Assembly: GCA_022568115.1 (NCBI GenBank)
Contig: JADFFP010000007.1
Location: 1 to 13,451, forward strand
Origin: Pseudomonadota bacterium
Lineage (GTDB): Bacteria > Pseudomonadota > Alphaproteobacteria > Sphingomonadales > SMXR01
DNA length: 13,451 bases
Reading direction: 5' to 3'
How positions within the stretch are numbered: the first letter of the stretch is position 1; each line of letters opens with the position of its first letter. Position numbers and translations under genes: made by a program. Below are positions 1 to 13,451 of the stretch, piece after piece. The notes under the pieces were generated by a model. The model worked only from the letters and a program-made list of their open reading frames with translations. It did not search any database and was not told the DNA's origin.

Positions 1-489
1 GAATACTGGCAAGGCTTATCAGAGTCACCTGAGTATGTCATAATGTTCCTCCCCTATGAATCTGTTTACCTGGCGGCGCTTGAAGCAGACCCGGAACTTA
101 CCGAAACGTCCCTGACAAGCAATGTCATTATCACTTCACCACACACGCTTCTTGGATTACTCAGGGCGGTTGAACGTGGCTGGCGCCAGCAGCGGCTGGC
201 CGAAAGCGCGCTCAAACTTTCGCAACTCGGACAGGAATTATATGATCGTATGGCGACCCTGAGTGAGTTCATGCTGGACCTGGGCAGGTCGCTCGGGGGG
301 AGCGTTAAGTCATACAATAAACTGATCGGGTCGTTTGAATCACGCGCATTCAGTACAGCGCGAAAGTTCAAAGACCTGGGCGTGGGCGAAAAAAAGCGCA
401 TAGAAGAAATCAACCCGCTCGAAGTGTCCCCCCGCCTGCTCAATCTACCTGACATCCGCCAGATCCCGGCCCCGGAGGATTTTAAGTGA
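1..489 (+). CDS. rmuC: DNA recombination protein RmuC, C-terminal part (5' truncated by window)
   Basis: The reading frame is open from base 1 and ends at TGA 487-489, so this is the 3' end of a longer gene. Near the start it reads SPEYVIMFLPYES followed by AALEADPEL. It continues with a VIITSPHTLLGLLRAVERGW block. These are hallmarks of the RmuC nuclease-like domain, in which an acidic residue and a conserved Leu-Leu-Arg-Ala-Val helix follow the FLP strand. RmuC proteins are linked to limiting inversions and rearrangements at short repeats; their biochemical activity is inferred from the PD-(D/E)XK-like fold. The remainder is helical (residues about 60-125 of the visible part) and ends in a short Pro-rich tail. 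An ATG at 43 lies inside the conserved domain and is not the start. The next gene begins 24 nt downstream but has a different base composition, so a functional link is not implied. Confidence 0.88.
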   Translation, partial: EYWQGLSESPEYVIMFLPYESVYLAALEADPELTETSLTSNVIITSPHTLLGLLRAVERGWRQQRLAESALKLSQLGQELYDRMATLSEFMLDLGRSLGGSVKSYNKLIGSFESRAFSTARKFKDLGVGEKKRIEEINPLEVSPRLLNLPDIRQIPAPEDFK

Positions 490-513
490 GGGTATTCGAA
501 TAGGCTTTCTTTT

Positions 514-1236
514 ATGACCCTTTACAAGTTCCGAGAATGTTGCGAACTTCACCTAAGCAGCCTCTACAATAGAGAGCTGTATTTTTCGTCACCGGCTCAA
601 TTGAACGATCCTTTCGACAGCCGGTTGCCCGTCTATGTAGGCGCATCCAAGGAAGAGATTCGTAGATACCTTGAATTCGTAGGCACCGATATAACAGAAG
701 AGAACATAAGTGCTATGAGAGCGGAACTGAAAGATGGCTATATGGATGTGCAGTCGAATGAAGCACTACTATCGAGGTTTGGTATCTGTTCGTTCTCCAT
801 GCTACGTGATAGCCTTACCATGTGGTCAATGTATTCTAATGGCCACCGTGGTTACTGCATTGAGTATGACAACGACCTACTACTGAGAGACGTAGAGAGT
901 TTTAAGAATGACAGTAAGCTTGGAATTCTATGGGGCGACGTGAATTATGTGTCCTATCTGCCAAAGATTCAAGTAGGGTCAGTAGAAATAATTAAGCTCT
1001 TTCTCTCGAAGTCTCACCAGTATGAATATGAAAAAGAGTTCAGAATCGTTCTAGCAGGTAAGAACAATTTTGTCGTCACATATACGAAGGAAGTCGTCAA
1101 ATCGGTAATTCTTGGATTGGAAGTTTCAGAATTCTACGAGCACACACTACGGAACATAGTAAAGGAAAAATACCCCGGGGCAAGACTATTGAAGGCAAGA
1201 AAATCAAAGGACGAAATTGGCCTTACTTTCAATTAA
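514..1236 (+). CDS. DUF2971 domain-containing protein
   Basis: This 240-residue protein shows the DUF2971 pattern. LYKFR is at the N-terminus, ELYFSSPAQLNDPFDSR at about residues 21-37, SFSMLRDSLTMWSMYSNG at about 93-110, HRGYCIEYD at 111-119, and YEKEFRIVL near 172-180. The molecular function of DUF2971 is not established. Members are frequently found in variable genome regions and near mobile or defence genes. There is no signal peptide or membrane segment, so it should be cytoplasmic. The ATG at 514 starts directly at the conserved LYKFR motif, which supports it, although no good ribosome-binding site is visible. Codon use is noticeably more AT-rich than in rmuC or the hut genes, which fits horizontal acquisition together with the next gene. 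Function unknown. Confidence 0.8.
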   Translation: MTLYKFRECCELHLSSLYNRELYFSSPAQLNDPFDSRLPVYVGASKEEIRRYLEFVGTDITEENISAMRAELKDGYMDVQSNEALLSRFGICSFSMLRDSLTMWSMYSNGHRGYCIEYDNDLLLRDVESFKNDSKLGILWGDVNYVSYLPKIQVGSVEIIKLFLSKSHQYEYEKEFRIVLAGKNNFVVTYTKEVVKSVILGLEVSEFYEHTLRNIVKEKYPGARLLKARKSKDEIGLTFN

Positions 1237-1254
1237 TTCGAGGACCAAGAGCCC

Positions 1255-1302
1255 ATGTCACACATAAAATACATACTTTCCGACAAGGCGAATCGAGCGC
1301 TG
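1255..1302 (+). repeat. Partial duplication of the 5' coding end of the downstream AhpD-like gene
   Basis: Bases 1255-1302 align codon for codon with 1950-1997. I count 36 of 48 identical positions, including an exact 16-nt run (CACATAAAATACATAC at 1261-1276 and 1956-1971). Both copies encode MSHIKYI, then two differing residues, then DKAN, and each stands at the start of its own gene. The upstream sequences are not alike, so the similarity begins at the start codon. Confidence 0.6.
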
Positions 1303-1941
1303 AACGGGTTTCAGTGTCTCCGCTTAGCATGTGTTTTCTTGTTCATTCAATCAATCGCAGCACCGGTATATTGCCAAAGTGAATACCTTTTTGAAGGACA
1401 GGACGCAATAAGCGTTGGTGTTGGGATGACAAGAACTCTGAAAGGCGACCCAGATGTGGAGGGTGTGAATCGAGTCTTGTTGATTGCCGCTTCCCCGGGA
1501 GGTGTATTCGATATCGGGGCAACATTCGCCAAGAACAGCAGGAACAGGAACAGTGTTACTTCGTTTTTCGCTGGGGTAAATATCTCTGAATCTCAACGAA
1601 AACGTCAGCGAAATGGAGTGATTCTGTTCGGGGAGATTTCCGCCTTTAATAAAGATTATGCCTTCGGCTTCCGCATTTACAACCGGCAAAACCTTCGCAA
1701 GGACTTTTACTTGGTTCCGGAGCTGCAAGGGGGAGTTCTCAGCATATCTTCCGGACCCTCAAATCGTAACTCGAAATTCTTCTGGGATGTGGGACTATCG
1801 CTGGGTTTCGGTACAAGTAAAGCACCGCTGGTTATCATCACACCTGGTTTGTCCAAGATTCAGGATACGCCTTTACGAATCGGGATTTCCGCTACACTGG
1901 TAGTCTTTTTTCCCAATAAGCCCCTCAAGCAAAAACGTTAG
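1255..1941 (+). CDS. Hypothetical exported beta-rich protein with AhpD-gene-like N-terminus
   Basis: I do not recognise this 228-residue protein. A hydrophobic segment at about residues 24-40 (LACVFLFIQSIAAPVYC) followed by QSE looks like a signal peptide with a possible cleavage after Ala or Cys. It is preceded by an unusually long, polar 20-residue N-terminal stretch. The rest is rich in Gly, Phe, Val and Ser in alternating patterns (for example SVGVGMTRTL, DIGATFAKN, FWDVGLSLGFG, RIGISATLVVFF). This would suit an outer-membrane or periplasmic beta-barrel or beta-sandwich. The first 16 codons resemble the first 16 codons of the selenoprotein gene directly downstream (MSHIKYI and DKAN are shared). 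The stop overlaps the leader of that gene, leaving 8 nt between them. No alternative ATG, GTG or TTG sits close to the hydrophobic core, so 1255 is the likely start. It is as AT-rich as the DUF2971 gene. Confidence 0.6.
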   Translation: MSHIKYILSDKANRALNGFQCLRLACVFLFIQSIAAPVYCQSEYLFEGQDAISVGVGMTRTLKGDPDVEGVNRVLLIAASPGGVFDIGATFAKNSRNRNSVTSFFAGVNISESQRKRQRNGVILFGEISAFNKDYAFGFRIYNRQNLRKDFYLVPELQGGVLSISSGPSNRNSKFFWDVGLSLGFGTSKAPLVIITPGLSKIQDTPLRIGISATLVVFFPNKPLKQKR

Positions 1942-1949
1942 GCTCATAA

Positions 1950-2507
1950 ATGTCCCACATAAAATACATACCCTACGACAAAGCCAACCCGCCTCTCAAG
2001 AAAGTTCTGGAAAAGTACGGCGGGGAATCGAAGCGGCCCGATAACATTGTCAACATATCCTCTGTCAACCCGCTGGCGATGGAGGGGCATATGGGGCTTT
2101 ATCGCAGTGTGCACAAAGGTCCCTCGCCAATCTCGCGGCTGAATCGCGAGATGATCGCCGTCATGGTCTCCGGCATCAACGGCTGCCATTACTGAGTGGC
2201 GCATCATGCGCAGGGATTCATTTCCCTGGGAGGGTCGGAGACCCTTATCAGACAGATCGCCGAAGATTACACCGCATCCGACATAGAACCGGCCGAGACG
2301 GCCATGCTGGGCTATGCCGCCAAACTGACACGTGAACCGTGGACCATCACCAAACAGGACACGGATGTTTTGCGCGAACACGGCTTTGATGATCGCGGGA
2401 TACATGACATCGCGCAGGTGGCGGCGTATTTTAATTATGTCAATCGTCTCGCCGACGGGCTTGGTGTGGAGTTGGAAGATTATCATGACGACAAATGGCG
2501 CGAGTAG
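1950..2507 (+). CDS. AhpD-like/carboxymuconolactone decarboxylase family selenoprotein (CxxU), TGA 2193-2195 read as Sec
   Basis: Reading through TGA 2193-2195 gives a 185-residue protein, the usual length of the peroxidase-related branch of the carboxymuconolactone decarboxylase/AhpD family. Before the TGA: NREMIAVMVSGINGCHY. After it: VAHHAQGF, then ETAMLGYAAKLTREPW and GIHDIAQVAAYFNYVNRLADGLG. In relatives the motif is CHYC-V-x-H-H, so the TGA stands exactly where the second, redox-active cysteine belongs (residue 82; partner Cys79; His85-His86 downstream). No other stop or frameshift interrupts the gene, and both halves are in one frame. These enzymes reduce hydroperoxides through a Cys pair; Sec would make a Cys-x-x-Sec centre. 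AhpD-like selenoproteins are known from metagenomic surveys. The alternative, a single nonsense mutation in a recent pseudogene, cannot be excluded without the Sec machinery. Automated annotation would split it into 1950-2195 and a GTG-started 2196-2507. The ATG at 1950 has only a weak leader (AGG overlapping the previous stop). Confidence 0.8.
2199..2245 (+). promoter_or_regulatory. Candidate bacterial SECIS region 3' of the Sec codon
   Basis: Three perfect local hairpins follow the TGA. GCGCA/TGCGC is at 2199-2211 with loop TCA. CAGGGA/TCCCTG is at 2211-2228 with loop TTCATT. AGGGTC/GACCCT is at 2231-2245 with loop GGA. An alternative extended fold pairs GGG 2213-2215 with CCC 2242-2244, then TTC 2217-2219 with GAG-side bases 2238-2240 (one wobble, after an A-A mismatch), then CCCT 2224-2227 with AGGG 2231-2234. 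Its GGG apical loop lies at 2228-2230, 33-35 nt after the TGA. Bacterial SECIS elements place a G-bearing apical loop roughly 16-37 nt downstream of UGA, so the extended fold meets that rule, although the local hairpins compete with it. Folding energies were not computed. Confidence 0.45.
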
Positions 2508-2521
2508 GTGTTGCGAATTGC

Positions 2522-2564
2522 TACAGTAGGGGCAGACCCATGTGTCTGCCCATTGTTTCTACGC
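2522..2564 (+). repeat. REP unit A
   Basis: The hairpin has arms GGGCAGAC (2530-2537) and GTCTGCCC (2544-2551) with loop CCATGT. The 43-nt unit recurs as a direct copy at 3215-3257 with three differences, and its core recurs inverted at 3269-3294. Confidence 0.8.
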
Positions 2565-2568
2565 TAGG

Positions 2569-2599
2569 TCGTGGGCGGCAGACCTCCCGGTCTGCCCCT
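2569..2599 (+). repeat. REP unit B
   Basis: The hairpin has arms GGCAGACC (2577-2584) and GGTCTGCC (2589-2596) with loop TCCC. The whole 31 nt is exactly repeated in inverted orientation at 3177-3207 on the far side of the transposase gene. Confidence 0.8.
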
Positions 2600-2635
2600 T
2601 CCACGCCGACCAACTGTAGACGCTGAGACAAGAAG

Positions 2636-3160
2636 ATGGTGATCCGAAAGCGAGTGAACATAACCGGCCCTGCTCTGGTGTTCGTTACTACCACAGTCAA
2701 GGATTGGACACCCGTTTTCGCAAACGAGCAGTTCGGACGATTAGTCGTTGATCTGTTGTGTGAAATGCTGCCACGACATCAAGTATCTCTGGGCGCATAT
2801 GTTCTTATGCCCTCACATCTTCACGCACTGATGGGATTTAGAGAGATCAAGCAACTGTCACGTACCATGCGGGCATTCAAAAGTCTTTCTACCAGGCTAC
2901 TTCGGCCTAAATTGCCACATGATTTACGGAACATCTTTGAAGAGAATGGCGCGTTTCGATTTTGGATGCCCCGCTTTGATGATGTGGTGATATGGTCGGA
3001 GAAACAGTTCAAAATCAAAGTTGACTATATTCATAATAATCCCGTAAAGGCTGGACTTGTTGGACAGGCAACTGAATATTCCATGTCCAGCGCCGTAGAT
3101 TGGATTCTTGGGAAACCGGGTTTGATTTCTATAGACAAGAACTGGGCATGGCTGGAGTAA
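2636..3160 (+). CDS. REP-associated tyrosine transposase (RAYT, IS200/Y1-transposase-like)
   Basis: The 174-residue protein has the two signatures of Y1 HUH single-strand DNA transposases. MPSHLHALM at residues 58-66 provides the His-hydrophobic-His metal site. YIHNNPVKAGLV at 131-142 provides the catalytic tyrosine (Tyr131) in the motif typical of RAYTs. Other matching parts are FVTTTVKDWTPVF near the N-terminus, YVLMPSHLH, and FWMPRFDDVVIWSEKQF at about 109-125. RAYTs bind and nick REP hairpins as single strands and are usually single-copy, domesticated genes rather than free transposons. Here the gene lies between inverted copies of one REP unit, which are presumably its substrate. Length is normal, no residues of the motifs are missing, and the frame is intact. 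The ATG at 2636 has a weak purine-rich leader (GACAAGAAG). Confidence 0.88.
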   Translation: MVIRKRVNITGPALVFVTTTVKDWTPVFANEQFGRLVVDLLCEMLPRHQVSLGAYVLMPSHLHALMGFREIKQLSRTMRAFKSLSTRLLRPKLPHDLRNIFEENGAFRFWMPRFDDVVIWSEKQFKIKVDYIHNNPVKAGLVGQATEYSMSSAVDWILGKPGLISIDKNWAWLE

Positions 3161-3176
3161 AACGCTAAAGTAGGCG

Positions 3177-3207
3177 AGGGGCAGACCGGGAGGTCTGCCG
3201 CCCACGA
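3177..3207 (-). repeat. REP unit B, inverted copy
   Basis: This is the exact reverse complement of 2569-2599 over 31 nt, with arms at 3180-3187 and 3192-3199. With the left copy it forms an inverted pair bracketing the transposase gene. Confidence 0.8.
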
Positions 3208-3214
3208 GAGTTGT

Positions 3215-3257
3215 TACAGTAGGGGCAGACCCGTGTGTCTGCCCATTGTTCATACGC
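3215..3257 (+). repeat. REP unit A, direct copy
   Basis: It matches 2522-2564 at 40 of 43 positions by eye: one change in the hairpin loop and two near the 3' end. The arms are intact. Confidence 0.8.
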
Positions 3258-3268
3258 AAAATTAAACC

Positions 3269-3294
3269 GGGCAGACACATGGGTCTGCCCCTAC
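3269..3294 (-). repeat. REP unit A, inverted copy
   Basis: Arms GGGCAGAC (3269-3276) and GTCTGCCC (3283-3290) have loop ACATGG. Over 26 nt it is the exact reverse complement of the core of unit A. Together with 3215-3257 it makes a head-to-head pair (BIME-like) only about 20 nt upstream of the candidate hutU promoter, where it could act as an insulator or terminator. Confidence 0.75.
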
Positions 3295-3314
3295 GATTGC
3301 TCTTCGTCCGCACA

Positions 3315-3343
3315 TTGCGCCAAAATCTTTCTTAATGTATATT
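3315..3343 (+). promoter_or_regulatory. Candidate sigma70-type promoter of the hut operon
   Basis: TTGCGC (3315-3320) and TATATT (3338-3343) are separated by 17 nt, giving a predicted start near 3350 and a leader of about 26 nt before hutU. No palindromic HutC-type operator is obvious around it. Confidence 0.4.
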
Positions 3344-3375
3344 TTACATCAGGCACAACTCTCTCTCTGACAATC

Positions 3376-5031
3376 ATGCCCTCGCCCAAACATACATACA
3401 AACCCATCAAAGCCCGCACAGGATCAAAACTCGTCTGCCAGGGATGGGCGCAGGAGGCCGCTCTGCGCATGTTGCAGAACAATCTCGACCCCGAAGTTGC
3501 CGAGAAACCCGAAGAATTGATCGTGTATGGCGGCTCCGGCAAAGCGGCGCGTAACTGGCAGGCCTATGAGCAAATTGTTAAATCGCTCAAAAAGCTAAAA
3601 AACGACGAAACCCTGCTGATTCAGTCCGGCAAACCGGTCGGTGTGTTTCAAACGCACGATTATGCTCCGCGGGTGTTAATCGCGAACTCCAATCTTGTGC
3701 CGAAGTTCGCCACCTGGGAACATTTCCGCGATCTCGAAGACCGCGGGCTGACGATGTACGGGCAAATGACCGCTGGGAGCTGGATATATATTGGCGCGCA
3801 AGGAATTCTGCAGGGCACATACGAGACATTCAGCGCGGCCGCCAGGAAACACTTCGGCGGCGACCTGTCGGGAAAATGGATATTGACCGGGGGCATGGGC
3901 GGCATGGGCGGCGCCCAGCCGCTGGCCGCGACCATGGCCGGCGCCCACCTGCTGGCGATTGAATGCCAGGCCAGCCGGATCGAAAAGCGCCTTGAGAGCG
4001 GCTATCTGGACAGGATGGCGGCCACGCTTGATGAAGCGCTGGATATTATCAGCCGCGCCCAGACCCCAACCTCGGTCGGGCTGCTGGGGAACACCGCGGA
4101 GATTATTCCGGAAATGGTCAAATCCGGCGTAAAGCCCGATGCGCTGACCGACCAGACTTCGGCCCATGATCCGCTCCGCGGGTACCTGCCGGCCGGCTGG
4201 AGCGTGGCCGAATGGCAGGATAAGCAAAAATCCAATCCCAAGCTGGTGGAGCGTGAAGCGCGGAAATCAATGGCCATCCATGTGAAGGCGATGCTTGAGT
4301 ACCATAAAATGGGCGTTCCGACTTTTGATTACGGCAATAATATCCGCCAGGCCGCCTTTGACGAGGGGATCAAGAATGCCTTCGATTTTCCCGGTTTCGT
4401 TCCCGCCTATGTGCGCCCGCTGTTCTGTCAGGGCAGGGGGCCGTTCCGCTGGGTGGCGCTTTCCGGCGATCCGGAGGATATTTACAAGACCGACCAAAAG
4501 GTCAAGGAGCTGGTAGACGATCCGCACCTTCACAACTGGCTGGATATGGCCCGTGAGCGCATCCATTTTCAGGGACTTCCGGCGAGGATTTGCTGGCTGG
4601 GCTTGGGGGACCGCGACCGGGTCGCCCTGGCCTTTAATCAAATGGTGAAATCGGGCGAGGTTTCGGCGCCGATTGTGATTGGCCGCGATCATCTCGATTC
4701 AGGATCGGTGGCCAGCCCCAACCGCGAAACCGAGGCGATGCTGGATGGATCGGACGCGGTATCCGACTGGCCGCTGTTGAATGCGCTGCTGAATACCGCC
4801 TCGGGCGCGACCTGGGTTTCCCTGCATCATGGCGGTGGTGTCGGAATGGGCTTCTCACAACACGCCGGGGTCGTTATAGTCGCTGACGGCACCGATCAGG
4901 CCGCTGCCAGGTTATCCCGCGTTTTGTGGAATGATCCGGCCACCGGGGTGATGCGTCATGCCGACGCCGGATATCGGAATGCAAAGGCATGCGCAAAGGA
5001 AAAAAACCTTAAATTGCCGATGCTCAAGTAA
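3376..5031 (+). CDS. hutU: Urocanate hydratase (urocanase)
   Basis: HutU converts urocanate to 4-imidazolone-5-propanoate, the second step of histidine breakdown, using tightly bound NAD as an electrophile. From the ATG at 3376 the protein has 551 residues, matching the family length. Visible signatures are [19 protein letters not shown] near residues 87-105, the [13 protein letters not shown] dinucleotide-binding loop at about 172-184, [13 protein letters not shown] near 346-358, and ICWLGLG with Cys406. Cys406 corresponds by position to the active-site Cys410 of the Pseudomonas putida enzyme. Conserved [28 protein letters not shown] and RHADAGY blocks follow. The frame is open further upstream into the REP repeats, but family alignment supports 3376. 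There is no clear Shine-Dalgarno sequence. It is the first gene of the hut operon; the transporter starts 33 nt downstream. Confidence 0.95.
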
Positions 5032-5064
5032 CGCTTTTAACCTGAAATTTGGGGAGAATATTTT

Positions 5065-6519
5065 ATGTCAGGTGCTGTAAAACACGAACAATGGTCGTCC
5101 CGGTGGGGCTTTTTAATGGCGGCGATCGGCGGGGCGGTCGGCCTCGGCAATATCTGGAAATTTCCGTACATGACCGGTGAGAACGGCGGCGGCGCCTTTG
5201 TGATCGTCTACATTGCCGCTGTGCTTCTGGTCGCGATACCGATTTTGATCGCTGAATTGCAGCTTGGCAAACGCGGCCACAAAGACATCATCAGCGGCAC
5301 CCGGAATGTTGCGGTGGCGGCGGGCAAGTCCAAATACTGGGGCATTATCGGTTGGCTTGGCATGCTGGCGGCGTTTTTCGTGCTGACCTATTACAGCGTC
5401 ATTGCCGGCCAGGTCATTGACTACTTTTTCCAGACCGGGACAGGCGCGTTCAGCGGAATGACACCTGACGAAGCGCGCGCCCAGTTTGATAATGTCGAGG
5501 CCAGTCCGTGGCGCATGATGATCGGCCATTCGGTGATTATGCTGATTACCATTGCGATTGTCGCCAGGGGTATCCAGAACGGCATCGAAAAGGCCGCCAA
5601 GATTATGATGCCGGCGTTTTTCGTGATGCTGATGGGGATGTTTTTCTACGCCATGGTGGTCGGCGACTTTGCTCGCGGGTTCGAGTACATGTTCACCTTT
5701 GATTTTTCAAAAGTAACCCCTGAGATAGTCCTCAGGGCGATTGGCCAGGCGTTTTTCTCAATCGGCATTGGTTTCGGCTACATGCTGGCGTTTGGTTCGT
5801 ACCTTAAGGATGACATTTCTATCCCGCGGACATCGGTGATCATTTCGCTCACCGATGCCGGGGTCGCCCTGATCGCGGGAATGGTAATTTTTCCGCTGGT
5901 GTTTGCGTTTGGAATGGAGCCGGGTGAAGGGCCGGACCTGATTTTCAGGATTTTGCCGATGGTCTTCAGCCAGATGAACCTTGGCACCATTGTCGGCAGT
6001 GTATTTTTCCTGCTTTTGACCTTCGCCGCCTTAAGCTCGGCGATTGCGATCCTGCAGCCGGCGGTCAGCTATCTGGAGGAATCGTGGGGCCTGAGCGTCA
6101 AAAAAGCGGCGGTCATGGCAGGCGGTGCTGCCTGGTTCTTGGGGATCGGCTCGGTCCTGTCGTTCAGCCTGTGGAAGGGGTATTACCCGCTGTCCTTCAT
6201 CAAGACGTTTGAGACCAGCACGGTCATGGATGTGGTTGATTTTATTACCGCCAACTACATGATGCTGGTCGGCGGTATCCTGATTACGGTATTTGTCGGC
6301 TGGAGCTTCAAGCCCGGCTGGGCGGAAAGCGAGTTCAAGGGGGAAAATCCGGTGCTTTTCACCATCTGGCTGTGGCTGGCACGGGTTTTTGCTCCGGCAG
6401 CGGTGGCGATCGCGCTTTATGTCCAGCTGACGGCTTCAGAACTCGACTGTGAGGCTGAAAATTTGACTCCTGAAGAGATTGCTCAATGCCTCGAAACAGA
6501 ACAGAATCAAAGCTCATAA
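5065..6519 (+). CDS. Sodium-dependent transporter, NSS/SNF family (probable histidine or urocanate importer)
   Basis: The 484-residue protein belongs to the neurotransmitter:sodium symporter family (LeuT fold). The unwound first transmembrane segment and its signature are at residues 19-45 ([20 protein letters not shown] and the Gly-rich run after it). They contain the Gly-Asn and Glu residues that line the substrate and sodium sites in LeuT. About 11-12 hydrophobic segments follow, in keeping with an inner-membrane transporter, and the C-terminal tail is acidic ([13 protein letters not shown]). Family members carry amino acids with sodium. Its position between hutU and hutH makes histidine, urocanate or a related imidazole compound the likely cargo, which is inference from context. 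GGGGAG at 5051-5056, 8 nt ahead of the ATG, is a good ribosome-binding site. The last 34 nt overlap the start of hutH. Confidence 0.93.
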
Positions 6520-8045
6520 TAATTGAGCCCAATGCCCTGAACCTGGCGGCCTTAAGGGCGGCTTATGGAGGACCGGCAACGGTCACATTGTCCGCGGCAG
6601 ACCGCAAGAAAATTGAAGCCGCCCACAAGACCGTCGCCGATGTGCTGAAAGAGGGGCGCACGGTTTATGGCATCAATACCGGGTTTGGGATTTTAGCACG
6701 CACCAAAATCGCCCCCGGGAAGCTTGAACAACTGCAAAAAAAGCTGGTGCTGTCGCACATGGCGGGGATTGGAAAACCATTGCCCGATAATGTCGTCCGC
6801 CTGGTCCTGGTGCTTAAATGCTTAAGCCTTGCAAAGGGCTATTCCGGGGTTAGTGTCGGCCTCATCGAAGCGCTCTCAAAACTGCTTGAAGCCGAGGTCT
6901 ATCCCATCATACCGGAAAAGGGTTCGGTCGGCGCTTCGGGCGACCTGGCGCCGCTGGCGCATCTTTCAGGTGTCCTGATGGGGCTCGGCGAGGTTCGCCA
7001 GGGCGGCAAAACAATGCCCGCCGCCGAGGGCCTGAACCGGGCGGGATTAAAGCCCATGAGGTTTGGACCCAAGGAGGGTCTGGCGCTCCTCAACGGCACT
7101 CAGGTTTCAACCGCCTTGGCGCTGGCCGGCCTGTTTGAGATTGAAAAGGTATTTGCCGCCGCGGTAGCCGCCGGGGCCTTGTCGGTCGATGCCGTCAAGG
7201 GATCGGACGCGCCCTTTGATGCCCGCATTCATGAAACGCGTGGCCAGCTGGGCCAGATCAGGGTGGCCCGGCACTACCAAAGACTTTTGGCCGGCAGTGC
7301 TATTCGCGCCAGCCATACCGATTGCGAACGGGTTCAGGACCCATATAGTCTGCGCTGTCAGCCCCAGGTGATGGGGGCGTGCCTCGATATGATCGACCAT
7401 GCGGCTGCGGTTCTTTTCAGGGAATCGAATGCGGTGAGTGACAATCCGCTGATCTTCCCTGATAATGGCGATGTGATCTCCGGCGGAAATTTTCATGGCC
7501 AGCCGGTGGCTTTTGCCGCCGATGTTTTGGCGCTGGCGGTTTCGGAAATAGGATCAATGTCGGAACGGCGCATCGCCTTGTTGATGGATGACAAACTCTC
7601 CGGCCTGCCGGCGTTCCTGGTTCCCGAAAGCGGGCTCAATTCCGGTTTTATGATCACCCAGGTCACGGCGGCGGCGCTGGCCTCTGAAAACAAGCAGATG
7701 TCCCATCCGGCCAGTGTCGACAGTATTCCGACTTCGGCCAATCAGGAAGACCATGTCTCGATGGCCACCTTTGCCGCCAGGCGGCTTTTGGAAATGGCCG
7801 ATAATACCGCGGGGATTGTTGCCATTGAACTTTTGGCCGCCGCCCAGGGGATAGATCTTGTGAAGCCCCTGAAAACTTCAGACACGCTTGCCAGAGTTTA
7901 CAGCGAAGTCCGCAAAGCGGCGGCGTTTGTCTCAGAAGACCGCCCCTTTACACCGGATATAGAGCGGGCCAAGGACCTGATTGCGGGGCCATTCTTCTCG
8001 CAGCTGCTCCCTGATCTGCTATCGAAAGGGAGCGCTGAAACTTGA
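6486..8045 (+). CDS. hutH: Histidine ammonia-lyase (histidase)
   Basis: HutH deaminates L-histidine to trans-urocanate, the first step of the pathway. The 519-residue protein carries the MIO cofactor triad Ala150-Ser151-Gly152 in [15 protein letters not shown]. It also has Tyr61 in YGINTGFG, the [14 protein letters not shown] block, [10 protein letters not shown] and FHGQP. All key residues of the family are present. The ATG at 6486 lies inside the 3' end of the transporter gene (34-nt overlap) with GAAGAG upstream. No alternative ATG/GTG/TTG codon lies between it and the conserved [15 protein letters not shown] segment, so this start is favoured; it adds roughly ten residues compared with typical HutH. 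The stop TGA 8043-8045 shares its last base with the next start codon (TGATG), so translation of the amidohydrolase is probably coupled. Confidence 0.95.
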
Positions 8046-8833
8046 TGGAACTTTTCCGCTACATCCCCGGCGCGGGTCCACTTCTGGTCAATTTTCCACA
8101 TTCCGGAACCTTTATTCCTGAAATCATCGCTGGCCGTATGACCAAAGAAGGCCTGGCCACCCCCGATGCCGATATCTATCTTGAACGCCTCTACGTTTTT
8201 TTAAGAACCTTGAAAATCCCGCACCTCTATGCCACCCACTCGCGCTATGTGGTGGATTTGAACCGGCCTCCCGATGATTCCAGGCTGTATCGGGGCACGT
8301 TCGGGACCGGCCTGTTTCCCGACATGACATTCAGAGGCCAGGCGATTTATAAAAAAGACGAGGAGTTTAAAGAGACCGAGCGCAAAGCCCGGATGGATGT
8401 CTATTATTGGCCCTATCACAACCGTCTCAAGGAGGAGCTGGAAAAGATCAAGGAGAAATTCGGATATTATCTCCTGTGGGACGCCCACTCGATCAAAAGC
8501 GAAGTTCCCAGCCTGTTCGAAGGGCGGCTCCCGGATTATAATTTTGGAACCAATAACAGGGCCGCCTGCAACCTGAACATGGAGCAGCCGTTCAAATCCC
8601 TTCTTTACCATCTGGGGGAGGGAAATGTGGTTTTTGACCAGCGTTTTATCGGCGGCTACATCACCCGGCACTACGGCAAACCAAAGGAAAAGCGCTATGC
8701 GCTCCAGCTTGAGCTATCACAAAGAACCTATATGGACGAACCAGCCGGAGAATATTCCCCCGAGAAATCTGTCCTGACCATGGCGTTGCTGCACCAGTTG
8801 ATCACCACCTATCAAAAAACCATTATCATGTAG
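8045..8833 (+). CDS. hutG: N-formylglutamate amidohydrolase (HutG-type)
   Basis: This 262-residue protein matches the N-formylglutamate amidohydrolase family, which hydrolyses N-formyl-L-glutamate to glutamate and formate. Visible parts are LLVNFPHSGTFIP near the N-terminus (a metal-ligand His region), THSRYVVDLNRPPDD, YWPYHNRLKEEL, LLWDAHSIKSEVP (a second Asp/His site), and QLELSQRTYMDE near the C-terminus. Its presence implies the five-enzyme branch, in which formiminoglutamate is deiminated by HutF to formylglutamate. The ATG at 8045 overlaps the hutH stop (TGATG) and is preceded by AAAGGGAG, a good ribosome-binding site. A TTG one codon earlier is less likely. It is the last gene of the hut operon; no convincing terminator is seen after it. 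hutI and hutF are not in the window. Confidence 0.9.
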   Translation: MELFRYIPGAGPLLVNFPHSGTFIPEIIAGRMTKEGLATPDADIYLERLYVFLRTLKIPHLYATHSRYVVDLNRPPDDSRLYRGTFGTGLFPDMTFRGQAIYKKDEEFKETERKARMDVYYWPYHNRLKEELEKIKEKFGYYLLWDAHSIKSEVPSLFEGRLPDYNFGTNNRAACNLNMEQPFKSLLYHLGEGNVVFDQRFIGGYITRHYGKPKEKRYALQLELSQRTYMDEPAGEYSPEKSVLTMALLHQLITTYQKTIIM

Positions 8834-8889
8834 GACGCCAGTGGTTGAGCTGGAACAAAGAGCAAGATGGAAACCTGGGTAATCCAAAA

Positions 8890-9003
8890 ATTCCGGTGGC
8901 TTTTGGCATTGGCCTGCTGATCGGAACGGAACGCGGCTGGAAACTGAGGGCCGCCCCGGAAGGATCCCGGGTTGCCGGAATAGGGTTGTTGCCTTTCCTT
9001 TAA
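8890..9003 (+). pseudogene. Fragment of an MgtC/SapB-DUF4010 family membrane protein gene
   Basis: Between hutG and the thiolase gene, one frame reads IPVAFGIGLLIGTERGWK, then LRAAPEGSRVAGIGLLP, ending at TAA 9001-9003. The GLLIGTERGW motif followed by EGSRVAGI is the conserved N-terminal start of MgtC/SapB-related DUF4010 membrane proteins. Only about 37 residues remain. The expected TFALIGLLGG-type continuation is degraded to GIGLLPFL and stops at the 3' end of the convergent thiolase gene. A possible start ATG at 8867 lies in another frame, implying a frameshift as well. This looks like the leftover of a gene truncated by the rearrangement that brought in the thiolase gene. Confidence 0.55.
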
Positions 9004-10184
9004 AGAAGTTCCAGCGCCACCGCGGTTGCTTCACCGCCGCCGATGCAGAGACTGGCGACGCCCTTTTTAAGCCGATATTTTTTCAAGGCCGCCAGCAGCG
9101 TCACCGAAATCCGCGCCCCCGAAGCGCCGATCGGATGGCCGAGCGCACAGGCGCCGCCGTGGACGTTGACCTTGGCGTGATCCAGCGAAAGCTCTTTCAT
9201 CGCCGCCATCGCAACCACCGCAAAGGCCTCGTTGATCTCAAACAAATCGACCTCATCCTTTTTCCAGCCGATGGCCTTCAGAAGTTTCGTAACAGCGCCG
9301 ATCGGGGCAGTGGTGAACCAGGCCGGCTCCTGGGCATGGGAAGCGTGTGCGTGGATGACCGCCAGCGGTTTTAAACCCCTCTCTTCCGCGACCGAGGCCC
9401 GGGTCATGACCAGCGCCGCGGCGCCATCGGATATCGATGACGAATTGGCCGCCGTCACCGTCCCATCTTTCCTGAATGCCGGACGCAGCTGCGGGATTTT
9501 TTCCGGCCTGGCCTTGCCGGGCTGTTCGTCGATGGTGACCTCGACCTCCGCTTTGCGGGTCTTAACAATTACCGGGGTGATTTCTTCTGCAAAGCTGCCG
9601 TCTTCGGTGGCCTGATTGGCGCGCCGCAGGGATTCGATGGCGTATTGGTCCTGGGCCTTACGGGTAAACTGGTATTTATCGGCGGTTTCCTCGGCAAAGG
9701 TCCCCATCAGGCGGCCCTGGTCGTAGGCGTCCTCAAGACCATCCAGGAACATGCTATCCTGGATGGCGCCGTGGCCGAGACGCATCCCGGCGCGAGCTTT
9801 GGGCAAAAGGTAGGGGGCATTGGTCATGCTCTCCATGCCGCCGGCGACAATAATGTCGCCTGATCCCGCCCTCAGCGCGTCAAAGGCCATCATCATGGTT
9901 TTCATTCCAGAGCCGCACATTTTGTTGACCGTGGAGGCGGGCACACTCAAGGGAAGCCCTGCGCCGATCGAGGCTTGCCGGGCCGGGGCCTGGCCCTGGC
10001 CAGCGGCCAGGACACATCCCATCAGCACTTCATCGATGTCCTCAGGCTTGAGCCCGGCCCGCTCAACCGCCGCCCGGATTGCCACAGCGCCCAGTTCGGG
10101 GGCTGTTACAGTTTGAAAATCCCCCATAAAACCGCCTATCGGCGTACGCGCCGCGCCAGCAATAACAATAGGATCATGTGCCAT
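9000..10184 (-). CDS. Acetyl-CoA C-acetyltransferase (thiolase II)
   Basis: The enzyme condenses two acetyl-CoA into acetoacetyl-CoA or runs the reverse thiolysis. It feeds polyhydroxybutyrate or ketone-body type pathways or serves in fatty acid and amino acid breakdown. From the ATG at 10184 the protein has 394 residues, the family norm. The acyl-accepting Cys90 is in NKMCGSGMK, His350 in [12 protein letters not shown] and the second catalytic Cys380 in CIGGGEA. NEAFA and the GGMESM motif are also present. All catalytic residues are intact. AAGGAG lies 7-8 nt before the ATG at 10184, so this start is preferred over one six codons upstream (10202). It lies opposite to the hut operon, with the remains of an MgtC-like gene between the two 3' ends. 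The AtoB/PhaA distinction cannot be made from sequence alone. Confidence 0.93.
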
Positions 10185-10312
10185 AAAGGACTCCTTAACC
10201 ATTCATTTATAGACTCCAGAATCAGTCCTGGTTTTGCTGGCGCGATTTTAAAGTTTTGACCGGCAAAAGGCAACCGCTTCGTCAAGTTGGAAGGAAACCG
10301 GAAGGGGCCGCT

Positions 10313-10462
10313 TTGAGACACATGGGAATTGGTTTTTTCGCAGGAGCGCTGTTAGGCGGCGCGGTTGGTTTATTGACGATCGAGGCGCCGGTTTTCGGGG
10401 CTATGGTTGGGGGGTTTGCGGGCCTGGCGATGGGCTATTTGATACAACGCGTTGAAATTTAA
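10313..10462 (+). CDS. Small glycine-rich membrane protein
   Basis: A short frame encodes about 49 residues, reading LRHMGIGFFAGALLGGAVG followed by LLTIEAPVFGAMVGGFAGL and ending AMGYLIQRVEI. Two hydrophobic, glycine-patterned helices (GxxxG-type spacing) are separated by a short Glu-Ala-Pro turn, which suggests a small inner-membrane hairpin. GGAAGGGG at 10300-10307 is 5 nt ahead of TTG 10313. An ATG at 10322 is possible but 14 nt from that site, and the frame is open back to a TTG at 10256. It is divergent from the thiolase gene and 45 nt upstream of the phosphatidyltransferase-family gene. I do not recognise a named family. Coding status is supported by codon use and the ribosome-binding site only. 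Confidence 0.5.
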   Translation: MRHMGIGFFAGALLGGAVGLLTIEAPVFGAMVGGFAGLAMGYLIQRVEI

Positions 10463-10472
10463 AAACCCTCCC

Positions 10473-10507
10473 TGTTCCAATCTCAGCCTTTCTGCTATAG
10501 TTTTTTC
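10473..10507 (+). promoter_or_regulatory. Weak candidate promoter giving a leaderless transcript
   Basis: TATAGT at 10496-10501 lies 6 nt before the ATG at 10508, so transcription would begin at or next to the start codon. No Shine-Dalgarno sequence precedes that ATG. The -35 position (10473-10478, TGTTCC) is poor, so the call is tentative. Confidence 0.25.
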
Positions 10508-11110
10508 ATGCTTGACCGCACCCTTCAGCCGCTGGTGGTTTCGATCCTGGATGTTCCGGGCCGAATGCTTGGCGCCCGCGGGGTGGAAAGCGACTGGATC
10601 ACGCTTGGCGGCTTTGTTTTGGGCCTGGCCGGGGCCGCGGCGATTGCCCTCGGGGCCTATGACGCCGCCCTTGTCCTGGTTTTGCTCAACCGCCTGGCCG
10701 ACGGTCTTGACGGGGCGGTCGCCCGGGCCTCAGGGGTGAGTGATTTCGGCCGTTATCTTGACATCGTGTTTAATTTCATTTTTTACGCCGCGTTTGCCCT
10801 CGGCTTTGCCTTTGCCGATCCAGAACTGGCCCTGACCTCGGCAATCCTGATTTTTTCCTTTCTTGGCCTGGGCGGAACGGTTTTGGCGTATGCCATTGTC
10901 GCCCAAGGAGCGGGGCTGGAGGCTGACGCCGCAGGCAATCTTTGGGTGGATAGCCTGTCCGAACTGGTAGGAACCTCTGAAACCACCATGGCGCTGATTC
11001 TAATGGCTCTGCTGCCGGCTTATTTCGGGGCTATTGCCCTTGTTTTCGCCCTGTTGTGCATGGTCACCACGGTCTTCCGGATTGTCCGGGCCTGGCTTGT
11101 GCTGAGATAG
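10508..11110 (+). CDS. CDP-alcohol phosphatidyltransferase family membrane protein with altered catalytic motif
   Basis: The 200-residue protein has about six hydrophobic segments and the CDP-alcohol phosphotransferase signature at residues 65-89: Asp65, Asp68-Gly69, Ala72-Arg73, Gly81, Asp85 and then Asn89. Family members swap CMP of a CDP-linked lipid for an alcohol (for example glycerophosphate, serine or inositol) in the inner membrane, using four Asp residues and two metal ions. Here the fourth Asp, the proposed catalytic base, is Asn (codon AAT at 10772-10774; GAT would be one base away). Everything else looks intact, so the protein may be inactive, altered in mechanism, or this may be a single-base variation. 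The substrate cannot be told. It lies just downstream of the tiny membrane protein and convergent with the phage-type repressor. Confidence 0.85.
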   Translation: MLDRTLQPLVVSILDVPGRMLGARGVESDWITLGGFVLGLAGAAAIALGAYDAALVLVLLNRLADGLDGAVARASGVSDFGRYLDIVFNFIFYAAFALGFAFADPELALTSAILIFSFLGLGGTVLAYAIVAQGAGLEADAAGNLWVDSLSELVGTSETTMALILMALLPAYFGAIALVFALLCMVTTVFRIVRAWLVLR

Positions 11111-11185
11111 CGAATAAGGCACGTAATAGTAGTATTTTTTACTGTATAGTTGTATAGGAAATACCCTATTCCTGATCGAATCAGA

Positions 11186-11869
11186 TCACAAATTCCGCCC
11201 CACCCAGATCACCTGGCCGATAATATTGACCTCGGAGGGCTTACAGTCAGGCCAGGTTTCATAAAGCGGGTTATCACTTTTAATCGCCAGAAGGCCGGTT
11301 GACGGATTAACCGAAATCCGTTTCACGCTGAGCGTATCGTCGTTGCGAATGACATAAATTCCATCCCGCTTGAGGGCTGTTTCAAGGGTGTCGACCAGAA
11401 TGCAGTCACCGTCTGAAAGGGTCGGTGTCATGGAGTCCCCACAGACCTTCAAAATTGATAAATTATCCGGGTTGCTCTGGGTCAGCGAATTTATAAAGCG
11501 GTTTTGGAACGGCATGAAATTATCCGTCCATTCGCGTTCGACAAATGCCCCGAAACCCGCACTGGCGCTGATATCATAGCTGGGAATCATGACGATCCCG
11601 TCATCTCCGAAATCAGAGAAGCCGGGGCTGTGGGCAGACCCTGGCTGGCCCTGGAAGGGGCTCCCCAGCTCCCACTCCGGGACCTTGAAATAGCGCGCTA
11701 TGGTGCGCCGGTCTTCTTCCTTCAGGCGCTTTGGAATTCCCCGCTGGATGAATTGCTGAATGTAGGCATGGTTTTTTCCTATCAGGGCGGAAATTGATGA
11801 ATAATCATCCTCCCTACTTTGCTGGACCAAGCTGTCCAGACGCTCTCGCACGGTTTTGTTTGGCAACAT
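11186..11869 (-). CDS. LexA/CI-like transcriptional repressor with S24 self-cleaving domain
   Basis: The 227-residue protein has an N-terminal helix-turn-helix-like region (about residues 24-66, SSISALIGKNHAYIQQF ... TIARYFKVPEWEL). A peptidase S24 domain follows. The likely autocleavage site is Ala104-Gly105 in SASAGFG, the nucleophile is Ser146 in GDSMTPTLSDGD, and the general base is Lys183 in SVKRI. Repressors of this type block phage or damage-inducible genes and inactivate themselves when RecA filaments form. The ATG at 11869 is preceded by GGGAGGGG. It is divergent from the gene at 12029, with palindromic operators between them, as in a lysogeny switch. It probably regulates itself and the rightward genes. 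No integrase is seen in the window, so this may be a remnant or a domesticated module. Confidence 0.9.
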   Translation of the reverse strand: MLPNKTVRERLDSLVQQSREDDYSSISALIGKNHAYIQQFIQRGIPKRLKEEDRRTIARYFKVPEWELGSPFQGQPGSAHSPGFSDFGDDGIVMIPSYDISASAGFGAFVEREWTDNFMPFQNRFINSLTQSNPDNLSILKVCGDSMTPTLSDGDCILVDTLETALKRDGIYVIRNDDTLSVKRISVNPSTGLLAIKSDNPLYETWPDCKPSEVNIIGQVIWVGRNL

Positions 11870-11904
11870 TTTGCCCCTCCCGGATAAGTTTGTTTAGCTT
11901 TTTT

Positions 11905-11933
11905 AGTCTAACAATAGGAATTTCATTTGACAA
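11905..11933 (-). promoter_or_regulatory. Candidate leftward promoter of the S24 repressor gene
   Basis: On the minus strand, TTGTCA (11933-11928) and TAGACT (11910-11905) are 17 nt apart. The first operator half-site (11911-11921) lies inside the spacer, suggesting autoregulation. Confidence 0.4.
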
Positions 11934-11951
11934 TAGGAATATTCCTATTGT
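11911..11951. promoter_or_regulatory. Repressor operator region (22-bp palindrome plus half-site)
   Basis: Bases 11930-11951 form a perfect palindrome made of ACAATAGGAAT followed directly by its reverse complement. An additional exact half-site ACAATAGGAAT lies at 11911-11921, 19 nt upstream in the same orientation. Position, symmetry and spacing between divergent genes make this the probable binding site of the S24 repressor. Confidence 0.8.
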
Positions 11952-11954
11952 AAG
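11927..11954 (+). promoter_or_regulatory. Candidate rightward promoter overlapped by the operator
   Basis: TTGACA (11927-11932, a consensus -35) and TGTAAG (11949-11954) are separated by 16 nt. The palindromic operator covers the spacer, so repressor binding would block this promoter, which reads into the gene at 12029 after a leader of about 65 nt. Confidence 0.5.
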
Positions 11955-12028
11955 CATGTTACCATAGGTAGAAAAAGTTAAGTATTTAATTTTAGTATTT
12001 TGGCAATTTCTGGAACTGGGAATATGGC

Positions 12029-12469
12029 ATGACGACTGACCTGAGGCATCGGGTTTCAAAACCCATCAGCAGACTGGCCAAAACCGGGGCTTTAAGCCCG
12101 GCCGAGGTCCGTGCCGCCCGGTTGATTGAAGAGGCGGTGATCTCAATCCTGACCCAGGATATCCACTCCAGCGGGATTGCCGAGCGGGGGCTTGCCAGGG
12201 GGAATACCGGGCCGGGTTTTGAAGACCAGTTTCTCAGGCGCCATGACGTCCGCCAAAGCTATTACGGGTGGGTAGAACAAATGGGGGCAAATCAACTGCC
12301 CGCCGGGCCGGTTCTGGCTGTGATCATTGATGGCCGGGCCCTGACGGAGGTTGACCGGACCTGGAAAAAACGAAAAGGCTGGACCCGGGGAAAACTGATT
12401 TCCGGCCTCAGGTTGTTTATTGAAATCGAAAGCCAGGAACGGGAGGAAAGAAACCGCTTGACGGCGTAA
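12029..12469 (+). CDS. Phage-type small regulatory protein (hypothetical; sigma-region-4-like C-terminus)
   Basis: This 146-residue, basic, mostly helical protein has no signal peptide or membrane segment. I do not recognise a named family with certainty. Residues about 94-131 (PVLAVIIDGRALTEVDR, then RKGWTRGKLISGLRLF) resemble a sigma-region-4 or late-regulator helix-turn-helix pattern. Similar C-termini occur in DUF6456-like alphaproteobacterial proteins and in phage late-gene activators. The middle (QSYYGWVEQM) is compatible with such regulators. It is the first gene right of the operator, where cro-like or activator genes stand in phage switches, and is followed by a strong terminator before the tail gene. 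A role in activating or antiterminating late genes is inference. The ATG at 12029 has a mediocre leader (GGAACTGGGA). Confidence 0.6.
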   Translation: MTTDLRHRVSKPISRLAKTGALSPAEVRAARLIEEAVISILTQDIHSSGIAERGLARGNTGPGFEDQFLRRHDVRQSYYGWVEQMGANQLPAGPVLAVIIDGRALTEVDRTWKKRKGWTRGKLISGLRLFIEIESQEREERNRLTA

Positions 12470-12514
12470 CGATCAAAAAGTACCATATTGGTTAAATACA
12501 ACACTTTATTTACC

Positions 12515-12560
12515 AAACGTCCGGTTTAGGATTCTTTCCTGCCGGGCGTTTTTATTTTTT
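12515..12560 (+). terminator. Rho-independent terminator between regulator and tail gene
   Basis: Bases 12515-12524 pair with 12542-12551 (10 bp, one T-G wobble). An inner AGGA/TCCT stem (12528-12531 with 12537-12540) extends the hairpin. The run TTTATTTTTT follows (12551-12560). It ends 27 nt before the next ATG, so it may also act as an attenuator for the DUF3168 gene. Confidence 0.8.
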
Positions 12561-12587
12561 AACTTTAAATCATTGAAAGGAAATAAA

Positions 12588-13073
12588 ATGAGTGCAGATG
12601 CCACCTGGCCCCTGCAAAAGGGGCTTTTGGGCCATTTAAGGACTGACTTGAGCTTGAAAAAACATCTTGGGAAACCCATCAGGATTTATGACCAGCAGGA
12701 AAAAGGCGGGGGCTATCCCTACCTGGTGCTTGGAGACAGTCATACCAGGGCCTGGTCCAGCGCCACATTTGACGGCCAGGAGCATGACATTATCCTGAAT
12801 TTGTGGACCAGCGGTGGCGGCAGTGCGGCCTCGAAAGAAATCGCCGGCGCCGTAATAGACAGGCTTCACGATGCTGATTTTCCGATTCCCGGACACGCCC
12901 TGGTAGATATGCAATTTGCCTCCTCTGAAACCCGTTACCGGGAAGACCGGGGTTTGTTCCACTGCCGCCTGACTTTCAAGGCCCTGACGGTTTCAGATTT
13001 AGTCCAGGGTTTGGTTATTTTTTGGGAAATGGGGAAAACGGGAAGGGCAGCTTATCGCTGGCAAACCCCATAA
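12588..13073 (+). CDS. DUF3168 phage tail-completion-type protein with an anomalous C-terminal extension
   Basis: Residues about 8-134 fit the DUF3168 family of phage and gene-transfer-agent head-tail proteins. LQKGLLGHLRTDLSLKKHLG is followed by IRIYDQQEKGGGYPYLVLGD, HDIILNLWTS with GGGSAASKEIAGAVIDRL, and CRLTFKALT at the usual end of the family. A further 27 residues (VSDLVQGLVIFWEMGKTG and on) do not look like DUF3168. The last 59 nt lie antisense to the 3' end of the DUF4389 gene, so the phage gene has probably lost its own stop and reads into host DNA. The ATG at 12588 has AAAGGAAA 4-11 nt upstream and is preferred over an in-frame TTG at 12573. Neighbouring head, tail or lysis genes are absent, so this is a remnant of a larger phage or GTA-like locus. 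Confidence 0.8.
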   Translation: MSADATWPLQKGLLGHLRTDLSLKKHLGKPIRIYDQQEKGGGYPYLVLGDSHTRAWSSATFDGQEHDIILNLWTSGGGSAASKEIAGAVIDRLHDADFPIPGHALVDMQFASSETRYREDRGLFHCRLTFKALTVSDLVQGLVIFWEMGKTGRAAYRWQTP

Positions 13074-13332
13074 AGCTGAAAATTTCGAAAATATAGGTAC
13101 TGACCTTGCCAGTAAAGGCTTTCAATCCCCGGTTCGGTTGATCTTTGATAAAGTATAAAACGTATTGGATGGCGGCCAGCACAAAGTAGCCCAAGACGAT
13201 AAAATAGAGCAAAAACCCGAACAGAACGATCGCCAGCAGGCGGAAAATCTTTTCCTCCAGGTTTATCTCCTTATTCTCATCCCGGCGGGCGCCTCGCGCA
13301 GGGGATGTTCCGGTTTTTGGTGAGGAGCTCAT
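13015..13332 (-). CDS. DUF4389 domain-containing membrane protein
   Basis: The 105-residue protein has a polar, Ser/Pro/Arg-rich N-terminus (about 35 residues). A long hydrophobic stretch follows (IFRLLAIVLFGFLLYFIV ... FVLAAIQYVLYFI), then KAFTGKVSTYIFEIFSFMGF and a C-terminal LPFPFSPFPKK, which is typical of DUF4389 proteins. The function of DUF4389 is unknown; an inner-membrane location is likely. The ATG at 13332 is preceded by AAAGGA at good spacing and is preferred over an in-frame TTG at 13365. It follows nrdJ on the same strand after a gap of 56 nt and may share its transcript. Its 3' end overlaps the DUF3168 gene tail to tail by 59 nt. Confidence 0.82.
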   Translation of the reverse strand: MSSSPKTGTSPARGARRDENKEINLEEKIFRLLAIVLFGFLLYFIVLGYFVLAAIQYVLYFIKDQPNRGLKAFTGKVSTYIFEIFSFMGFASDKLPFPFSPFPKK

Positions 13333-13388
13333 AACACTGTCCTTTATACCCTCTAAATGAGACAAAAAGAGGAGTTTTCAAGGCCTTT

Positions 13389-13451
13389 TTATGAACACCC
13401 GGTGGTCGCGCCGCAGGTATCGCACTTCAGACATGTGCCGTTCCGGACCAG
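13389..13451 (-). CDS. nrdJ: Vitamin B12-dependent (class II) ribonucleotide reductase, extreme C-terminus
   Basis: On the minus strand the last 20 codons before TAA 13391-13389 read LVRNGTCLKCDTCGATTGCS. This is the conserved cysteine-rich C-terminal tail of class II, adenosylcobalamin-dependent ribonucleotide reductases of the alphaproteobacterial type. The tail cysteines reduce the active-site disulfide after each turnover or bind zinc. The rest of the gene lies beyond the window. The DUF4389 gene follows directly in the same direction. Confidence 0.85.
   Translation of the reverse strand: MVRNGTCLKCDTCGATTGCS

Follow-up and report, generated by a model that had tools for sequence, protein, structure and literature searches.

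The window analysed here, a stretch of 13,451 nucleotides that makes up a whole contig of a bin assigned to the Pseudomonadota, carries a forward-strand gene for an AhpD-like protein (1950–2507) whose frame is crossed by a TGA at 2193–2195. The best joint explanation, to which a probability of roughly 0.86 is assigned, is that this is a TIGR01926/COG2128 selenoprotein gene with a CxxU motif, that it has a Zixibacteria-like origin, and that it was misassembled into a contig of alphaproteobacterial type inside the gene hutU. Selenocysteine (Sec) is the best reading of the UGA, and the product very probably belongs, as an ordinary member, to an already known family of bacterial selenoproteins. 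The Sec reading is well supported because the break at residue 82 is common to many relatives and because a CxxU form of TIGR01926 has been published. With this gene, a known family of Sec peroxidases gains a member that is probably Zixibacteria-like.

The AhpD-like gene and its published family

Translation of 1950–2507 yields 186 codons closed by a TAG, with a single internal stop, the TGA at 2193–2195, and neither a second stop nor a frameshift; read through, the frame encodes 185 amino acids. The TGA falls at residue 82, three positions after the TGC codon of Cys79 (2184–2186), in the context C79-H-Y-[TGA]-V-A-H-H, and the Cys-x-x-[in-frame TGA] arrangement that characterizes the CxxU form is therefore present at the redox motif. 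The TIGR01926 'peroxidase-related' profile scores 135.4 bits over residues 8–174, spanning the TGA, against a curated cut-off of 81.8, and the Pfam CMD profile scores 41.6 bits over residues 43–123 against a cut-off of 23. Both the observation of a frame interrupted solely by this TGA and that of family-like sequence on either side, made in the initial annotation, are borne out by these results. Alignment A1, which comprises 22 rows picked from the best matches and is biased towards forms with tryptophan, shows C79, Y81, H85 and H86 as invariant. The first 38 nucleotides of the gene (1950–1987) are repeated with 84% identity at 1255–1292, the start of an upstream open reading frame (1255–1941), so that the gene start looks as if it had been duplicated by an insertion; the rest of that frame matched no Pfam or NCBIfam family.

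AhpD-like selenoproteins of this kind (TIGR01926/COG2128, CxxU) have been in the literature since 2005. The available text of PMC1088965 describes 27 CxxU sequences from the Sargasso Sea; that of PMC2398784 counts 299 'AhpD-like 1' sequences, and a 2026 review (PMC13188914) has, in its accessible part, the entry 'AhpD-like protein, TIGR01926, CxxU, MCB9421940.1'. The family also appears in the list excerpted from PMC9312934. As far as the accessible descriptions in PMC1088965, PMC2398784 and PMC13188914 go, the window protein shares with them the profile family, above cut-off, and the Cys-x-x-Sec arrangement; this likening relies on the published descriptions and the profile, and within it no distinguishing feature was found. 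The gene is a new member of the AhpD-like CxxU family and not a new kind. Among the matches listed in the literature search, no paper brings together AhpD-like proteins and Zixibacteria, and PMC8318568, the single paper retrieved on Zixibacteria together with selenocysteine or selenoproteins, mentions Zixibacteria in its excerpts in connection with genome recovery. A related model, NF041238 (AhpD_rel_CFYUT, alkylhydroperoxidase-related (seleno)protein), has the AhpD core in common with the window protein (residues 56–180), but the score of 51.1 bits is far under the cut-off of 175 and the model extends over 357 positions, as opposed to 185 amino acids.

A join within hutU

The contig appears to be a chimera. 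From 3,464 to 13,378 the window is collinear with a congener, G002, at 91% identity overall, and within this stretch identity changes abruptly from 0.70 to 0.95 at position 3,904 (range 3,896–3,928). The change point lies inside the urocanate hydratase gene hutU (3385–5031, forward strand), whose frame is a hybrid: the first ∼172 residues are Zixibacteria-like and the rest is as in G002. Residues 6–172 of HutU are 64–81% identical to both congeners, which are 92–93% identical to each other there, whereas beyond residue 172 identity to G002 rises to 91–99%. The reverse pattern is seen with the protein P0234, at 88–96% before residue 172 and 39–68% after it. P0234 is also the best match (92%) to HutU 1–172 among the 120 listed by a search that scored only the 8,000 candidates with most shared words; an organism is given for 15 of these 120, namely 11 Zixibacteria, two GN15, one member of the FCB group and one 'bacterium'. 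The segment 1–3904 is thus foreign to the bin and Zixibacteria-like by the start of hutU, and the part native to the bin is 3905–13451, collinear up to 13378 with contig C49 of G002. Further towards the left end, an rmuC fragment (1–486) is just 24% identical to its match in G002.

The segment was apparently attached by error to the genome of another organism: most likely, Zixibacteria-like DNA was fused to the alphaproteobacterial-type contig near 3,904 by misassembly, and the source of the AhpD-like gene is most likely a Zixibacteria-like bacterium. The bin is judged to be alphaproteobacterial on the basis of genes in its relatives. A very improbable alternative is that the join records a real recombination and that the gene now resides in a genome of alphaproteobacterial type. 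A gene resembling a Y1 (IS200-like) transposase is present in the segment at 2636–3160, flanked by five copies of the palindrome GGCAGAC-N6-GTCTGCC at 2531–3289 (region 2514–3306), and the transporter gene at 5065–6516 likewise departs from G002, with highly identical blocks on both sides; both features would favour recombination. Against this alternative, the palindrome is absent from the rest of the 1.59-Mb bin (it occurs in one of 20 other genomes searched), and the switch occurs at a conserved stretch of a coding gene and, by the best named relatives, between different phyla. Moreover, the upstream hut genes native to the bin lie on another contig, C58, whose end is 94% collinear with G002 and stops at the match to G002 base 12474, ∼2 kb before hutU. 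A search of the bin gave no further hutU, as would be expected if the native stretch were missing from it.

Other features of the contig can be recorded here. An Rfam search of 1–3900 returned three microRNA-family matches, far under the gathering score, at 3219–3294 within the palindromic repeats. The gene for a sodium-dependent transporter (5065–6516), with hutU on one side and hutH on the other, has 76% identity to its counterpart in G002, as against mostly 91–99% at the DNA level in the flanks, and is possibly a second mosaic block. A phage tail completion (gp17) gene occupies 12573–13073 in the native part; the congener has it too.

Selenocysteine machinery and SECIS candidates

The initial annotation had proposed searching the genome for selA, selB, selD and tRNA-Sec, and all four remain under cut-off in the bin. 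Six matches to selB were obtained, the best of which (a 402-amino-acid frame) fell short of the 242.25-bit cut-off with 187.5 bits; we take them to be other translational GTPases such as EF-Tu. The best selA match scored 46.7 bits against 267.9, selD gave no match, and the best tRNA-Sec candidate scored 43.9 against a gathering score of 47. The eight stronger of the 13 tRNA-Sec matches coincide with tRNAs called by ARAGORN (Ser, Gly, Cys, Leu, Tyr, Leu, Ser and Phe). Across 60 genomes of the order, the bin included, selA exceeded the cut-off in none. As the segment is foreign to the bin and the bin is 71% complete, the lack of sel genes neither supports nor refutes the Sec reading; the proposed check is inapplicable in its original form, and the idea that missing sel genes refute the reading was dropped once the segment had emerged as foreign. 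SelA, SelB, SelD and tRNA-Sec would instead have to be supplied by the Zixibacteria-like source. A note of caution follows: since the contig appears chimeric, a check of sel genes confined to the bin would wrongly refute a sound selenoprotein.

A SECIS search of the 60 nucleotides after the TGA had also been proposed. A folding energy of –26.6 kcal/mol (z –2.28) was computed for the 74 nucleotides that start at 2187, and 4 of 200 shuffles did at least as well. The published bacterial model sets a G in the loop, a spacing of 16–37 nucleotides and an energy limit of –7.5 kcal/mol, and no unbulged hairpin after the TGA satisfies all three together. On the forward strand, the hairpin at 2211–2228 (–9.0 kcal/mol) has its loop at +22, a fitting distance, with no G in the loop; that at 2230–2246 (–8.7 kcal/mol) displays a fitting GGA loop at +42, beyond the 37-nucleotide spacing. 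Two unbulged hairpins within range do possess a loop G, at +33 (–2.8 kcal/mol) and +35 (–0.4 kcal/mol), and are below the strength limit. According to the accessible part of PMC13188914, some bacterial SECIS elements do not fit the model. The earlier designation of the gene as a probable selenoprotein is partly supported, by way of the shared break and the published CxxU family.

Residue 82 in the relatives and the proposed redox centre

A search with the read-through protein detected 297 relatives. Among the best 120, which are listed, the column aligned with the TGA holds Cys in 80, as had been stated from the sequence for relatives in general, Trp in 28, and Arg, Gly and Leu in two each; the remaining six are short fragments that do not include the column. 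A second search, with the piece downstream of the TGA, found 935 relatives; it takes only proteins of ∼57–180 amino acids and is thus no measure of the share of Cys forms. Of the best 120 listed, some of which may be fragments made by contig ends, 118 start at residue 83 or later, and 53 exactly at 83. The two exceptions are P0015, a full-length Trp form, and P0204, which BLAST places at 75; its N-terminus is MQHH, and we favour a start at 83 followed by an insertion further on. Such a pile-up of starts at 83 is expected from a conserved stop. Named sources of the listed fragments of this type are Caldilineae, Chloroflexi, Anaerolineaceae 4572_5.2 and SAR324.

These forms were compared on a tree built with FastTree from 230 downstream sequences, with fragments under 80 amino acids excluded. 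All of the first 60 fragments examined (of 116, the window included) have another fragment as nearest neighbour; among the 28 Trp rows, 23 are nearest to another Trp row, five to a stop-fragment and none to a Cys row, and among the first 60 of the 80 Cys rows, 59 are nearest to a Cys row and one to a Trp row. The division between stop-or-Trp and Cys entails eight changes on the tree (224 such rows), and the rows adjoining the window sequence are the fragments P0001 and P0121–P0124. On the evidence of these sequences the gene is not a lone broken one: numerous relatives are interrupted at this very residue, beyond what chance would produce.

A sense codon recently mutated to TGA, leaving a pseudogene that yields an 81-amino-acid fragment, is for this reason very improbable. 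Such an event would suit a bin devoid of sel genes above cut-off and the missing complete SECIS match, but the break at residue 82 is common to a large clade, the frame is otherwise free of stops and frameshifts, and the piece after the TGA is still 88–89% identical to P0001, the closest relative and itself a fragment with the same starting point.

The Trp rows make TGA a more probable stop in the relatives than TAA or TAG. None of the 28 lies on a contig longer than 3,187 bp, a threshold set after inspection of the data, while 45 of the 80 Cys rows do (rank test, p 7e-8); we infer that the Trp is a TGA misread by gene callers that apply code 4 to short contigs. If so, many database entries of the TIGR01926 AhpD-like family end at the Sec codon or probably contain a false Trp there. 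There is scarcely any likelihood that TGA genuinely encodes Trp (code 4) in the source organism: the 28 Trp rows among the 120 listed relatives would agree with it, yet their short contigs are precisely where code 4 would be the choice of a gene caller, the other fragments terminate at a stop, and the column is Cys in the rest of the family. In addition, the rmuC frame of the same segment ends in TGA (487–489), which makes it probable that this codon serves as an ordinary stop in that DNA. Hardly any credence is given to the idea that the join is real and that a Sec-less lineage of alphaproteobacterial type captured a Zixibacteria-like block, its orphan UGA being read by an unrecognised route or the gene having just been silenced.

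In surveys of genomes, a TGA at the motif was found, among the matches listed, in the window only. The 59 relatives other than it had none, in a set of 60 genomes of which 48 gave a match, and none was seen among the listed matches from 397 other genomes of the phylum (58 of 398 matching at E 1e-18); the two sets overlap. The motif position is TGT or TGC at 38 loci (L016–L053). Viral contigs searched with alignment A1 gave 46 pattern matches and no relatives, and 456 plasmid records, of which 15 are listed, contain relatives, all below 60% identity. The six Gly, Arg and Leu rows have Cys (two), stop-fragments (three) or Trp (one) as nearest neighbours. In P0020 (Latescibacterota) a Gly and in P0047 an Arg stand at the Sec column, both on contigs longer than 1 Mb; these residues are one base away from TGA if the codons are GGA and CGA.

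With Sec as the preferred reading, the UGA at 2193–2195 would be decoded to give Cys79-His-Tyr-Sec82-Val-Ala-His-His. Sec82 and Cys79 would then form the redox pair of a small thiol peroxidase or reductase with the AhpD fold, handling peroxides or disulfides. By analogy with AhpD enzymes, attack on a peroxide or similar oxidant would fall to one member of the pair and resolution, as a selenenylsulfide, to the other; Sec82 is a tentative candidate for the attacking residue. The best PDB sequence matches to alignment A1 are 3c1l (Mlr4105; E 2.9e-46) and 2pfx (peroxidase-related; E 3.7e-46). Both differ from the window protein in being of the Cys type, with the second Cys at the place of the TGA, and in having an Ala where the window protein has His85.
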